From Algicola sp. (lineage in GTDB: Bacteria > Bacteroidota > Bacteroidia > Flavobacteriales > Flavobacteriaceae), in the NCBI GenBank assembly GCA_018222915.1, contig JAAEZI010000001.1, positions 139,082 through 203,081 of the forward strand: a DNA stretch of 64,000 nucleotides. The letters are read 5' to 3'. Below the pieces are notes generated by a model, which worked only from the letters and a program-made list of their open reading frames with translations, made no database searches and was not told where the DNA came from. This document shows positions 20,023 to 24,110 of this stretch, in pieces (positions within the stretch are counted from its first letter, which is position 1; each line of letters starts with the position of its first letter). The position numbers and the translations under genes were made by a program.

Positions 20023-22044
20023 TTGAAGGTAGTTGCTATTTTAATATTTCTAATTCATTTTAGTTATCTCCAAAATAATCAGGAGCAACCTATAACATCT
20101 ACAATTGATGACCTGATTGAAAAGTCTAAAGACGACGCATTTAGTTTAGAAGAAAGGAAGGCATTCGCTCTAAAATCTGTACAACTTGCCAAACAAAAAA
20201 ATGTGGATTCAATTATTTTGAAAGCGAATCGAAATTTATCGTTGATGTATTATTACACCGAGGATTTTGACAATTATATTGCGGTCAATCAATTCAATAA
20301 TAAACTGGCTTTTAAATTAAAAGATACCTCAGCTTTAGCAGTGGCTAATCACAATTTAGGAAGTTACTATAAGTTCGATAGACAGAATGATAGCGCTTAT
20401 TACTATTTCTCAAAAGCTTTAGGGTATTATAGCAATTTAAATAATTTAGATCAAAAGGCTTATATATTAATGAGTATTGCTGATCTTCAGTATAATGAGA
20501 AAGATTATACATCGAGTGAAAAGAGTGCCATAGATGCCTTAAAAATTTTGGAGCAACTTCCTAGAACAGAGAATAACTTAGATGATTATTGGATTCTAAA
20601 TAATAGAATCGCAGATATATCCTCTGAATTAAATCAGTATCAAAAATCAATTGAGTATCATAAGAAAGCATTAGATATTGCGAAGGAGATGGAAGATGGC
20701 TTTATTGATGAGATTTATTCGATCAATAATATGGCCTTTGTCTATAGAGAGATGGAGGATTATGATAAAGCATTAGAACTTTATAAAAGTTTACTCCCAT
20801 TAAGAGAGAAATATGATGAAGAGGATCCAACATTTTATGCATTAGTCATCAATAATATTGCTTATACCGAATTTTTATCGGGAAGCACTGATTATGAACA
20901 GCTTAAAAAGTCCTTTTATGAGGCTTACGATATTTCTGATCAATATGAAGACGAGGTAACAAAAATGGCTGTTACAACAGACTTGTCTAAGTTTTATCTT
21001 CAACAAGAACAATTAGATTCTGCATATAAATATGCAAATGAAACGTATAAAATCAGTAAACAATTATCAGCAAATGATTATGTGCTGGAGTCCCTCATTG
21101 TATTATCGAAAGTTAGTGAAGGAGATAAGGGAAAGGCATATTTGATGGAACACATCGCCTTAAGCGATAGTTTGCTTAATATTGAAAGAAATACTCGTAA
21201 TAAAAAGGCGAGAATTGAATTTGAAACAGATAAGATAGAGGAGGAAAATAGAAGGATTTCAGAACAGCGAATGTGGCTCATGATTATTTCCGCAGGATTG
21301 TTATTAACGTTATTTCTCCTGTATATTATTATTACTCAACGCGCCAAGAACAAGGAATTAAAATTCGAAAAGGAACAACAAAAAGCCAACGAGGAGATTT
21401 ATAACTTGATGCTGTCACAACAAGATAAAGTAGACGAGGCACGTGCCAATGAAAAGAAGCGCATTTCAGAGGAATTACACGATGGTGTCTTGGGCAGACT
21501 TTTTGGTACTAGATTGAGTTTGGATAGTTTGAATTTTTCGGAAGGTAAAGATGCTATTACTAACAGAGCGTCCTATATTCAGGAGTTAAAAACCATTGAA
21601 AATGATATACGTAAAATCTCACATGATTTAAATACAGATTTTGTGTCTGGCTCCGGATTTATGGATATTGTTTCAGAACTGATTGACAAGCAGACTCAAG
21701 CGTATCAACTCAAATCATCATTCGAATATACAGATGACATTAATTGGGAAATGGTACCCAATAAGACCAAGATTAATATTTATAGAATTATACAGGAATC
21801 ACTTCAGAATATCTACAAACATGCCAATGCTAACCAGGTAAAAATTAGTATTCAATTAAAAAATAATGTAATTTGCTTGTTGATTATTGATAATGGTGAT
21901 GGTTTTGATGTCAACAAAAGTAAAAAAGGTATCGGAATCAAAAACATTAACTCAAGAGTAAATGAGGTTGAAGGGACAGCCGAGTTTATCTCATCAATAC
22001 AACAAGGGACTGAGGTTAAAATTACGATACCTTACAAAAATTAG
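20023..22044 (+). CDS. TPR-sensor histidine kinase, NarL/LuxR-system type
   Basis: The 673-residue kinase has a signal-like N-terminus, then TPR-type helical repeats (about 30-385) as outside sensor, a coiled coil, one membrane helix (417-438), a second coiled coil, a HisKA_3 domain with phospho-acceptor His486 (ISEELHDGVLGR), and an ATPase domain with N box NIYKHANANQ, DNGDGFD (623-629) and GIGIKNI (636-642). It should autophosphorylate and pass phosphate to the regulator 5 bases downstream. The start is TTG: an in-frame stop lies at 20002 and no ATG precedes the signal segment. The stimulus is unknown; TPR sensors often read protein or peptide partners. Confidence 0.88.
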   Translation: MKVVAILIFLIHFSYLQNNQEQPITSTIDDLIEKSKDDAFSLEERKAFALKSVQLAKQKNVDSIILKANRNLSLMYYYTEDFDNYIAVNQFNNKLAFKLKDTSALAVANHNLGSYYKFDRQNDSAYYYFSKALGYYSNLNNLDQKAYILMSIADLQYNEKDYTSSEKSAIDALKILEQLPRTENNLDDYWILNNRIADISSELNQYQKSIEYHKKALDIAKEMEDGFIDEIYSINNMAFVYREMEDYDKALELYKSLLPLREKYDEEDPTFYALVINNIAYTEFLSGSTDYEQLKKSFYEAYDISDQYEDEVTKMAVTTDLSKFYLQQEQLDSAYKYANETYKISKQLSANDYVLESLIVLSKVSEGDKGKAYLMEHIALSDSLLNIERNTRNKKARIEFETDKIEEENRRISEQRMWLMIISAGLLLTLFLLYIIITQRAKNKELKFEKEQQKANEEIYNLMLSQQDKVDEARANEKKRISEELHDGVLGRLFGTRLSLDSLNFSEGKDAITNRASYIQELKTIENDIRKISHDLNTDFVSGSGFMDIVSELIDKQTQAYQLKSSFEYTDDINWEMVPNKTKINIYRIIQESLQNIYKHANANQVKISIQLKNNVICLLIIDNGDGFDVNKSKKGIGIKNINSRVNEVEGTAEFISSIQQGTEVKITIPYKN

Positions 22045-22049
22045 ACATC

Positions 22050-22718
22050 ATGCAACACATTCATATATTGATGGTGGATGACCATCCAATCATTATTGAA
22101 GGTTACCAAAACACATTAATGGCCACAAAAAAAGAGGATCAAACTTTAGTCATCGATACGGCTAATACTTGTGACGCTGCTAATCTTTTAATGCAAAAGG
22201 CCGCTAAAGAACGACCTTATGATGTGTGTTTTTTTGATATCAGTTTACCAGCATCTGAAGACGGTAAGATCACCTCAGGTGAGGACTTAGCTAAAATTTC
22301 ACGGACTATCATGCCAAATGCTAAAGTCATCATTTTGACCATGTTTAATGAATCTTACAGGATTCACAGCATCGTGAAGGAGATTAATCCAGATGGTTTC
22401 TTAATAAAAAGTGATCTTACATCCAGCGAACTTGCAGAGGCGTTCCATCACATTTTAATAGATCCACCATATTACAGTAGTACCGTGAGTAATTTTTTGA
22501 ATAAATCGGTGGTTAATGAAATTTATGTCGATGAAATCAATAGAAAAATACTTCATTTATTATCTCAGGGGATCAAAACACGAAGCTTAACTGAATACAT
22601 CGATTTATCCATGAGTGCTATCGAAAAGCGTAAAAAACAACTCAAAATATTGTTCTCAATTAACGATGGAAAGGATGAATCACTCATTATTGAGGCCAGA
22701 AAAAAAGGGTTTCTTTAA
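22050..22718 (+). CDS. LuxR-type response regulator
   Basis: The 222-residue protein has a receiver domain with the acidic pair Asp10-Asp11, phospho-acceptor Asp63 in CFFDISLP, the Thr of ILTMFNES, and the Lys of FLIKSDL. The C-terminal 60 residues (NRKILHLLSQGIKTRSLTEY onward, with MSAIEKRKKQLK) fit a divergent LuxR-type helix-turn-helix. It is the cognate partner of the upstream kinase. Its likely targets include the repeated boxes that lie directly behind the gene (22744-22823), an inference from proximity and box symmetry. Confidence 0.85.
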   Translation: MQHIHILMVDDHPIIIEGYQNTLMATKKEDQTLVIDTANTCDAANLLMQKAAKERPYDVCFFDISLPASEDGKITSGEDLAKISRTIMPNAKVIILTMFNESYRIHSIVKEINPDGFLIKSDLTSSELAEAFHHILIDPPYYSSTVSNFLNKSVVNEIYVDEINRKILHLLSQGIKTRSLTEYIDLSMSAIEKRKKQLKILFSINDGKDESLIIEARKKGFL

Positions 22719-22743
22719 AAAATCAAAAAAAAATGCATTTTTT

Positions 22744-22823
22744 TACGGTTTCATTTCCTTCTGAAACCATTGCTCTCATTGATAACTACGGTTTTTCCGC
22801 ATCAAGTTTACGGTTTTTCCGTA
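22744..22823 (+). promoter_or_regulatory. Repeated ACGG-N5-CCGT boxes, putative response-regulator sites
   Basis: TACGGTTTTTCCGTA (22809-22823) is a near-perfect inverted repeat ACGG-N5-CCGT. A second copy, TACGGTTTTTCCG, starts at 22787, exactly 22 bases (two helical turns) upstream. A half copy TACGGTTTCATTTCC begins at 22744, 43 bases (four turns) further up. They end about 22 bases before a -7 box that lacks a good -33 element, the arrangement expected for activator sites. Binding by the adjacent regulator is inference. Confidence 0.6.
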
Positions 22824-22845
22824 ACAAAAAGTAAAAGACAATTTC

Positions 22846-22853
22846 TATATTTG
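22846..22853 (+). promoter_or_regulatory. Promoter -7 box behind the two-component genes
   Basis: TATATTTG matches TAnnTTTG. No TTTG is found 18-20 bases upstream; instead the ACGG-N5-CCGT box ends there. Start of transcription expected near 22859. Confidence 0.6.
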
Positions 22854-22858
22854 AATAA

Positions 22859-22952
22859 GTCAACAAACTTAATTAATCCCTCTAAGTAATTTGTTGAATT
22901 AATAGCAAAGAAACAAACCTAACATTTCTCAACAAGTGTTAGGTTTATCTTT
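22859..22952 (+). ncRNA. Candidate small RNA
   Basis: The predicted transcript starts at a hairpin (TCAACAAA-CTTA at 22860-22871 with TAAG at 22883-22886 and TTTGTTGA at 22890-22897) and ends in a perfect 10-bp hairpin (AAACCTAACA 22915-22924, TGTTAGGTTT 22937-22946) followed by ATCTTTT. The loop of the second hairpin carries TCAACAA again, which could compete for the same TTTGTTGA, so two alternative folds exist. No start codon with a usable frame lies within. About 93 nucleotides. The downstream gene is on the other strand, so this is not a leader of it. Existence is predicted only. Confidence 0.45.
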
Positions 22953-22967
22953 TAGTCACATTTTGAA

Positions 22968-23465
22968 TTAGAAGATGACCTCCTGATAATCAAAGAACTT
23001 CACAATAAAGAATCCTAGGAAAATCATCGCGACCATAAATTTTATAAAGGTAGAAGCAATGAAGCCAAGAAAGGATCCAAATGCCGCTTTTAAAGCTTTA
23101 TCAAATTCAGATTTATTAATTAATTCGCCAATAAGTGCTCCAAAAAAGGGTCCGATAATGATGCCACCTGGAATGGGAGATAGTAACCCAACGACCAAGC
23201 CTATTGATGTCCCGATCATACCAGCCTTAGTACCACCAAATCGCTTGGTGCCCATAGCTGGAATAATATAATCGAGAATCCATATGCCCAAGGCAACAAT
23301 GAAGGTGATAATGAGAAATGTCCAATTCATAGGGATAGCCTCGGCTAAATGAAATATGAGAAGACCTACCCAACTTGTCAAAGGACCAGGTAAGACAGGC
23401 AGAAAACTTCCAATAATGCCAAGGATCATGAAAATTCCCGCTAAAACAACTAAAAATATATCCAT
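22968..23465 (-). CDS. DUF456 membrane protein
   Basis: A 165-residue protein made of about four or five membrane helices with glycine-rich stretches (LPVLPGPLTSWVGLLIF near the start; SPIPGGIIIGPFFGALIGE in the middle), the recognisable pattern of DUF456. Glycine zipper-like repeats suggest tight helix packing. No molecular function is known for the family. ATG start at 23465. It faces the candidate small RNA, whose end hairpin could also terminate this gene. Confidence 0.82.
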   Translation of the reverse strand: MDIFLVVLAGIFMILGIIGSFLPVLPGPLTSWVGLLIFHLAEAIPMNWTFLIITFIVALGIWILDYIIPAMGTKRFGGTKAGMIGTSIGLVVGLLSPIPGGIIIGPFFGALIGELINKSEFDKALKAAFGSFLGFIASTFIKFMVAMIFLGFFIVKFFDYQEVIF

Positions 23466-23524
23466 ATAATAAATTTCAAACGTTAATGATTAGACGATAA
23501 ATAGCCATTTATGTTACACTTATG

Positions 23525-23565
23525 AACTAAAAAATTAGTTGTAACTAAAAATTTAGTTATATTTG
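23525..23565 (+). promoter_or_regulatory. Operator and promoter of the first BlaI/BlaR1 module
   Basis: Two 16-base palindromes stand in tandem with an 18-base period: AACTAAAAAATTAGTT (23525-23540) and AACTAAAAATTTAGTT (23543-23558). The second runs straight into the -7 box TATATTTG (23558-23565). Its core CTAAAAATTTAG matches the operator of the second module (CTACAAATGTAG) at 10 of 12 bases with the two changes placed symmetrically. The leader to the gene at 23740 is about 170 bases. Confidence 0.65.
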
Positions 23566-23739
23566 TGATGGAAAAACTATTTTGATTCATTAGAATGTTG
23601 TGAAAATGGGGTTGTCTTTGTGGTACTTTTAGTGTGCTAAGTGTCCGTAGCACAACCATCACATGACAGAAAAAAGTTTAGAGTTTATAAGAAATTTAAT
23701 GTTTTGGTTAACTACCAAAGACTAAAATACAATTAAGTA

Positions 23740-24110
23740 ATGAAGCAACTCACAAAAGCAGAAGAAGAGATTATGCAAATCCTATGGCAATTGGGAAAGG
23801 GCAATGTTAAAGATATTATTGCCGAAATAAAAGCGCCCAAACCTGCTTATAATACCGTGTCGACTATTGTTCGCATGTTCGCATCTTGGAGAATAAGGGT
23901 TTTGTGGATTATGAGAAGCAAGGCAAAGGTCATTTGTATTTTCCCTTAGTAAAAAAGCAAGATTACAGTAACCAAAGCATCAATAATTTGGTTGAAAATT
24001 ATTTTCAAGGCTCCTTCCAAAGCATGGTATCGTTTTTTGTAAAGAAAAATGATATCGATTTAAAGGATATGGAAACTATTTTAAAAGACATTAACAAATC
24101 AAAAACATAG
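23740..24110 (+). pseudogene. BlaI/MecI-family repressor gene, frameshifted
   Basis: The first 45 codons encode the winged-helix N-terminus of a BlaI-type repressor (MKQLTKAEEEIMQILWQLGK onward, to YNTVSTIVR). After that the frame breaks, and the rest (LENKGFVDYEKQGKGHLYFP, then the dimerisation helices) lies in another frame up to 24110. The cause is visible: GTTCGCAT is duplicated in tandem at 23869-23884. Removing one copy restores a single 120-residue protein, close to the intact 121-residue paralog at 42314-42679. As read, only a 69-residue product without the dimerisation part would be made. A sequencing error or a reversible slip cannot be excluded. Confidence 0.85.
23869..23884 (+). 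repeat. 8-base tandem duplication breaking the repressor frame
   Basis: GTTCGCAT occurs twice in a row (23869-23876, 23877-23884). Deletion of one unit gives ...IVRILENKGF..., exactly the family sequence. Confidence 0.9.

Follow-up and report, generated by a model that had tools for sequence, protein, structure and literature searches.

It is from Proteobacteria that regulators whose output is a small RNA are best known. In the RcsB-RprA system of enterobacteria, RprA is the small RNA, and Rcs is a phosphorelay with RcsC, RcsD and RcsA; its box and RNA sequence differ from those of the locus described here. In Bacteroidetes, PorX/PorY exerts two-component control over genes related to secretion (T9SS), and we know of no small RNA for this pair. 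In Pseudomonas, the RNAs RsmX/Y/Z, which control extracellular products, are preceded by a palindromic activating sequence that is regarded as a possible binding site of GacA, and they titrate RsmA via several GGA motifs (PMC2375449). Rfp18 of Flavobacterium psychrophilum is described, in the available part of its report, as affecting metalloprotease mRNA levels, as found mainly in the genus Flavobacterium, and as pairing through its third stem-loop (PMC9723704).

In this study, we analyzed a locus where a two-component gene pair is followed by two palindromic boxes and a predicted small RNA. It lies in a 64,000-nucleotide stretch of DNA, hereafter named the window, from a Psychroserpens-like genome. 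As far as sequence comparison goes, it is a real, conserved regulator-small-RNA locus of marine Flavobacteriaceae, undescribed within the literature searched, where no description of this RNA, box or regulon was found. A response regulator with a small-RNA output is known as such; here it comes with a new predicted RNA, a new box and a putative proteolysis regulon.

Comparison with known systems

The likeness to GacS/GacA-RsmX/Y/Z consists of a LuxR-type response regulator, a palindromic box upstream of a small RNA, and control of extracellular products (PMC2375449). Unlike in that system, the window RNA adjoins the regulator gene, and the box would serve protein genes too. The Gac/Rsm mechanism proper is excluded, because the 93 nt of the window RNA contain no GGA motif and CsrA/RsmA (PF02599) had no match in the window genome (G000, assembly about 95% complete), three of 14 control genomes being positive.

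RcsB is among the solved structures nearest to the regulator, and PDB entry 6zj2 is titled as RcsB bound to promoter rprA, which makes up the likeness to RcsB-RprA. PorX also came up in the fold search with the regulator, through its receiver domain; PorX chains are about 500 aa long and have another effector domain.

Rfp18, compared here by its description only, is likewise a small RNA of flavobacteria, with a link to the expression of metalloproteases, according to the available part of its report (PMC9723704). Its effect on metalloprotease mRNA levels would fit a reading in which the window RNA is Rfp18 or its ortholog. We hold this to be very unlikely, since the portion of the Rfp18 report at hand describes pairing via the third stem-loop and names no kinase-regulator pair (PMC9723704), and no Flavobacterium title occurs among 80 matches to the RNA pattern listed from GTDB.

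The kinase-regulator pair

The sensor histidine kinase (673 aa, 20023-22044, forward strand) has an N-terminal TPR region (TPR_12, 5e-16), one membrane segment predicted by reading the sequence, a HisKA_3 domain (2e-4; 22.2 bits, just below the curated cut-off of 24) and a HATPase_c domain (1.7e-9, above its cut-off). The response regulator that follows (222 aa, 22050-22718, forward strand) combines a receiver domain (Response_reg, 6.7e-9) with a NarL/RcsB-type helix-turn-helix. A profile made from 45 of its orthologs matched full-length RcsB at 6.7e-10, and also LiaR/VraR and NarL, and its AlphaFold2 model (pLDDT 87.9) gave spr1814, RcsB and LiaR as top Foldseek matches. By their domains, the two proteins are a two-component system of the NarL/LuxR (HisKA_3) class. 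The convergent gene on the other side of the RNA (22968-23465, reverse strand; Pfam DUF456, 1.7e-38) is the usual downstream neighbour in relatives; we do not think that it belongs to the circuit.

Boxes and promoter geometry

An earlier note, made from the window sequence alone, had reported two boxes 22 bases apart upstream of a -7 element, and both hairpins treated below. Rechecking the letters confirmed these features: TACGGTTTTTCCG is present at 22787-22799 and 22809-22821, exactly 22 apart. Box 1, the distal one (22787-22799, forward strand), reads ACGG-N5-CCG, with 7 of the 8 palindrome letters, and is kept in all 23 orthologs of the genus Psychroserpens. Box 2 (22808-22824) is the full palindrome TTACGGTTTTTCCGTAA and, judged from sequence and from the geometry across loci, stands at the -33 element's place. 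The -7 element TATATTTG (22846-22853, forward strand), which we take to be of the Bacteroidetes type TAnnTTTG, appears as TA[TC][AC]TTTG in 23/23 genus orthologs. With up to 3 mismatches, the box pair occurs once in the window, against 0.00 in 100 shuffles; single boxes with at most 1 mismatch occur twice, against 0.06 expected.

The half copy reported 43 bases further up (TACGGTT at 22744) is present in the window, but at that distance it was found at one of 59 loci, the window's own. ACGGTTT lies at 53 in six other loci and at 55 in one, and a third half-box was therefore not retained as a conserved element.

Among 120 loci, 107 have a box and a -7 element, and 13 have none under that rule. 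The distance from the centre of box 2 to TAnnTT is 30 bp in 103 of the 107 (offsets of 28-32 being allowed), and a box spacing of 22 scores highest in 87. An open scan of offsets 10 to 79 covered 106 loci, two of them counted twice, of which 90 have exactly one TAnnTTTG in range. Among these 90, the best palindrome was at offset 30 in 73 loci and, in the other 17, at 52 without 30, so that 90/90 stand at the expected places. Mean scores, out of 8, were 6.78 and 5.78 at offsets 30 and 52 respectively, and about 0.1-3.9 elsewhere. We infer that the phosphorylated regulator would bind the two ACGG-N5-CCGT palindromes, 22 bp apart, and that, from the -33 element's place, it would recruit RNA polymerase to the TAnnTTTG promoter 30 bp downstream, thus activating rather than repressing transcription.

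The predicted small RNA

The product would be a non-coding RNA of about 95 nt, in which a 5' hairpin presenting the loop UUAAUCCCUC is followed by the motif UUAAUAGCA and by an intrinsic terminator. Covariance model, fold energy and alignments (A2 and A3) place its predicted gene, of about 93-100 nt, at 22858-22950 on the forward strand. The covariance model, R1, was built from 26 RNAs and matches the window at 22858-22957. The region 22856-22956 folds at -23.6 kcal/mol, versus -9.9 (sd 2.7) for shuffles (z -5.05), none of 200 being as good.

In the 5' hairpin (22860-22897, forward strand), supported by folding and conservation, TCAACAAA (22860-22867) pairs with TTTGTTGA (22890-22897). Its loop contains TTAATCCCTCT (22873-22883), and TCCCTC is found in 22/23 genus orthologs. 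Right behind follows a motif predicted to be single-stranded, TTAATAGCA (22899-22907, forward strand), recognized by its conservation; TTAATAGC is present in 23/23 genus orthologs and shows no variation in the 26 rows of alignment A3. The terminator hairpin AAACCTAACA...TGTTAGGTTT (22915-22946, forward strand) has a perfect 10-bp stem (22915-22924 with 22937-22946), followed by ATCTTTTAG, a weak T tail, longer T runs being found in most relatives. It is the only terminator-like site in 22600-23600, where shuffles gave 0.4.

The absence of a usable reading frame, also claimed in the earlier note, holds insofar as no ORF of 20 codons or more lies inside the predicted transcript of the window; a 39-codon TTG frame overlaps the boxes and the 5' part of the RNA, and a 26-codon frame lies on the opposite strand. 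On sequence, the element thus combines the traits of a small RNA: a predicted promoter of its own, no ORF, a conserved RNA structure and an intrinsic terminator. A search of Rfam with 501 bases and E up to 5 returned nine matches to unrelated families, all far below gathering scores, which we judged to be chance.

In the unfitted MAFFT alignment A3, compensatory changes affect 6 of 18 pairs, every one in the terminator stem. A model-fitted alignment, which leans towards structure, was made of 100 matches (96 distinct rows, including a few weak opposite-strand ones). There, 11/11 terminator pairs are changed on both sides and 94.9% of terminator cells are paired; overall, 93.6% of cells pair, versus 74.9% in shuffled and 31-49% in slid versions. 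The terminator hairpin is therefore well supported. Little covariation is seen in the predicted 5' hairpin because its UCAAC/GUUGA stem is nearly invariant, and the case for it rests on conservation and folding energy.

Two competing folds had been proposed from two TCAACAA segments. The second copy is present in the window, and TCAACA recurs in 14 of 23 Psychroserpens genomes, but in none of 81 other loci. Competition between folds thus lacks support outside a part of the genus.

The element lies directly behind the regulator gene, and its terminator would also stop read-through towards the convergent DUF456 gene, as would be expected if there were no RNA of its own here and the element were a conserved terminator or 3'-UTR belonging to the regulator operon, or a feature at the DNA level. 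This is highly improbable: a predicted promoter of fixed geometry separates the regulator gene from the RNA, conservation is highest in the loop of the 5' hairpin and in TTAATAGC, both dispensable for termination, and in one genome tandem duplicates each have their own terminator.

Conservation of the locus in relatives

A separate RNA gene remains our preferred reading, and we examined its occurrence in relatives. A search for boxes and hairpins behind orthologous regulators of Flavobacteriaceae, the comparison that the earlier note had named as its test, found them in 23/23 Psychroserpens genomes and in other genera too. In all 23, a regulator ortholog (73-100% identical over nearly full length) is followed by both boxes, the -7 element and the RNA core. 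The genus-wide RNA of about 95 nt has the TCAAC/GTTGA stem, a UCCCU-containing loop, TTAATAGC and the terminator hairpin. The exact box pair was found in six of 199 family genomes (five of 198 genera), always with 9 letters between the copies, the reversed control giving 0.

R1 matched 95 of 349 family genomes, at 98 places. Regulator and kinase genes are upstream in 29 of the 30 best places, the 30th being at a contig end with DUF456 downstream. They are also upstream in 56 of 60 weaker ones (L131 among the 56 being the same locus as L085), and missing in L121, L143, L145 and L147. Seven of the 98 places lie outside these 30 and 60, and two of those (G028 and G082) were inspected separately. 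At E<=0.001, R1 yields false terminator matches, and 4 of the 60 weaker family regions are such matches or unlinked copies. In the most sampled genus, g127, presumably Flavobacterium, 8 of 121 genomes have a match at this threshold, and the three with loci are terminator-only, with neither core nor regulator. In a sample of the order, 6 of 296 genomes matched, and the sole match outside family f1 (L388) is terminator-only.

As an unbiased check from the opposite side, a pattern scan over GTDB for the RNA core alone gave at least 119 places. Among the matches listed, the regulator gene lies upstream in the same orientation, no more than 700 nt away, in 104. In 12 more, the slice ends too soon on the upstream side, and the DUF456 gene follows downstream; the other three, with neither neighbour, are unrelated (L236, L282 and L284: two Chitinophagaceae MAGs and one Alkaliphilus MAG). 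Hosts among 80 matches listed include Winogradskyella, Gelidibacter, Algibacter, Tamlana, Hyunsoonleella, Bizionia and Formosa. We also read by eye 24 further regulator loci, mostly from genomes without R1 match. Fourteen of them (regulator identity 55-73%) have boxes or remnants, a diverged RNA, usually with TAATAGC, and a terminator. The RNA is missing in the other ten, eight at 45-55% regulator identity and two at 57-59%, and it is therefore not tied to all homologs of the regulator.

Some genomes have several copies. In G109, three tandem R1 matches follow one regulator (L131, 1501-2172; also L004); all share the frame TCAAC...GTTGAATTAATAGC, each with a terminator, and their loop sequences differ. 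Two R1 matches are present in L083 (G312). Besides its usual copy, G134 carries at about position 1500 of L143 (G134:C5) an RNA-like copy, TTCAACA...GTTGAATTGGATTAATAGCT plus terminator, with no regulator gene beside it.

Co-occurrence of regulator and box

With the regulator called at E<=1e-60, it is present in 77 of 199 family genomes, and the box TTACGGNTTNNCCGTAA in 43. The box is found in 35/77 genomes with the regulator versus 8/122 without (p 1.4e-10, Fisher, uncorrected for kinship), and the reversed control box in 5/77 versus 6/122 (p 0.75). When boxes within 400 nt behind the regulator are left out, the numbers are 32/77 versus 8/122 (p 3.1e-9, again uncorrected for kinship); since the genomes are related, these Fisher values overstate independence. 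The strict box is absent in 42 of the 77 genomes with the regulator, and many box sites in such genomes may be missed or spurious.

The boxes might instead be bound by another NarL-type regulator of the genome, the neighbouring pair being a bystander, and other, weaker homologs of the regulator are indeed present in these genomes. This is most unlikely given the co-occurrence across the 199 genomes. Moreover, in G184, which lacks a strict regulator, the box is near a more distant regulator gene (L185), and box variants shift together within a genome, as with TTTTCCC at 5 of 6 sites in G107.

Box sites before secreted peptidase genes

In Psychroserpens, the exact palindrome TTACGGTTTTTCCGTAA was matched 45 times, in 19 of 22 genomes, and its reversed control never. 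Thirty of these were available with their loci: 12 are RNA promoters and 18 are other sites. Together with three sites of the window genome (L012, L015 and L016), this makes 21 non-RNA sites, of which 15 face a secreted peptidase gene (M57, M12B, M43 or S8; 13 by Pfam, 2 by BLAST) and six do not. At M57 promoters, the distance from box to TAnnTT is 30 in 5/5 genomes; M12B, M43 and S8 promoters have no TAnnTTTG at +30. A peptide-ABC ATPase gene lies on the other side of the box in many M43/S8 loci and in some M12B loci of other genera.

Thirty loci from other genera were collected with a looser box. Four are RNA promoters, 8 of the 26 others face a peptidase gene (M12B three times, M57, M43, S8, M14 and M1), and 18 are without a recognised peptidase. 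Homology to 12 of these peptidases was found for 24 of 61 box-adjacent ORFs (these 12 included), versus 1 of 91 ORFs from unrelated loci.

As a side observation, M43 and S8 promoters (L154, L161, L166, L169, L175, L158 and L167) have TTCAACGAAAACG about 22 nt after the box; standing where TAnnTTTG would be expected, it is possibly another promoter type. In L016 and L160, a gene for a small secreted protein has its TATATTTG 74 bp after the box, and the leader of this gene, AATTAATTAATTTAATCCCTT, resembles the RNA loop.

The earlier note had proposed the small RNA as the direct output of the pair. Synteny, box and geometry are kept, in agreement with this proposal, but the RNA is probably one output rather than the sole one, because the same palindrome precedes secreted-peptidase genes, with the same geometry at M57. 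Through the same box, the same regulator would drive secreted peptidase genes and the peptide-ABC ATPase, and the RNA would be one arm of an extracellular-proteolysis regulon. We consider likely the model as a whole, i.e. a two-component system acting through a box pair on a small RNA and a peptidase regulon. Its synteny, its box and promoter geometry, the conservation of the RNA and the peptidase regulon are demonstrated at the level of genome comparison. The core of the initial interpretation thus survives, without the third half-box, the two folds and the sole output.

A putative switch sequence before many secreted-protease genes points to an undescribed circuit for extracellular protein digestion, and suggests how marine Flavobacteriaceae, important protein degraders, turn on extracellular proteolysis. 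The locus is a clearly bounded candidate, and the family it comes from is large, of ecological importance and apparently without CsrA (one genome examined). Regulator, box with exact promoter spacing, RNA and coherent targets (secreted peptidases and peptide uptake) are all named, and each link is therefore testable in a culturable marine bacterium.

Possible action of the RNA

We infer that the RNA would most likely act on other mRNAs through its C-rich loop. Its predicted pairing with 19 leaders of the regulon, ranked against 171 background leaders, was no better than background for most. With the loop, no regulon leader reached the top 5%; with the tail, one did (2.3%), and with the 57-nt 5' part, one (1.2%), which gave no convincing targets. 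The loop complement AGAGGGATTA has 40 matches in five genomes, versus 8 for the reversed control. Five of the 40 are RNA genes, and among 30 with loci many are inside genes; no conserved target set was found in these five genomes.

Alternatively, the RNA might be driven by the regulator and act as a decoy, its UUAAUCCCUC loop copying a C-rich pre-start element of some peptidase mRNAs and titrating a translational repressor. Among box-linked peptidase leaders, 4/23 carry A[AT]CCCT in the last 35 nt ahead of the ATG, versus 8/886 others (p 1.4e-4), a post hoc enrichment for which 11 motifs were tried, in leaders that are not independent because they are homologous. In another Psychroserpens genome (L370), an M12B-peptidase-like gene has TAATCCCTCT right before its start. 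Loop sequences vary in some lineages and the genome has no CsrA, which both speak against a decoy, and we regard it as unlikely. TTAAC[CT] is also enriched (8/23 box-linked leaders versus 42/886), driven by homologous leaders.

A fuller version would be an analogue of Gac/Rsm in Bacteroidota that works without CsrA. In it, a leader-mimic RNA made by the regulator would use its UUAAUCCCUC loop and its UUAAUAGCA motif to sequester an RNA-binding protein that represses secreted-peptidase mRNAs, and the peptidase genes themselves would be turned on by the same regulator, in a coherent feed-forward loop. We find this quite unlikely; if it were true, the tandem copies, whose loops differ, would serve as decoys of distinct specificity.

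Action on other mRNAs remains the reading we prefer. In two Psychroserpens genomes, an intergenic element beside a DUF393-like gene (L371 and L373, about position 1500) carries TAATCCCTCT on the reverse strand, ahead of a terminator-like hairpin and its T run, and TTGATTAATAGCAC on the opposite strand. From its sequence, it is possibly a second small RNA with the same loop sequence.

Other features of the window

A TGTTAAAATT stretch is found right behind the stop codon of the regulator gene in 21 of 59 loci (22719-22750 in the window; also L029-L050). Further downstream, at 23740-24110, a BlaI/MecI-like gene is broken into two frames, of 69 and 74 aa, that overlap, and a BlaR1-like gene comes next; both names come from reading the sequence. 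Relatives (L170 and L202) have a single 120-aa frame for the BlaI/MecI-like gene, so that the split in the window would be a frameshift or an assembly error.
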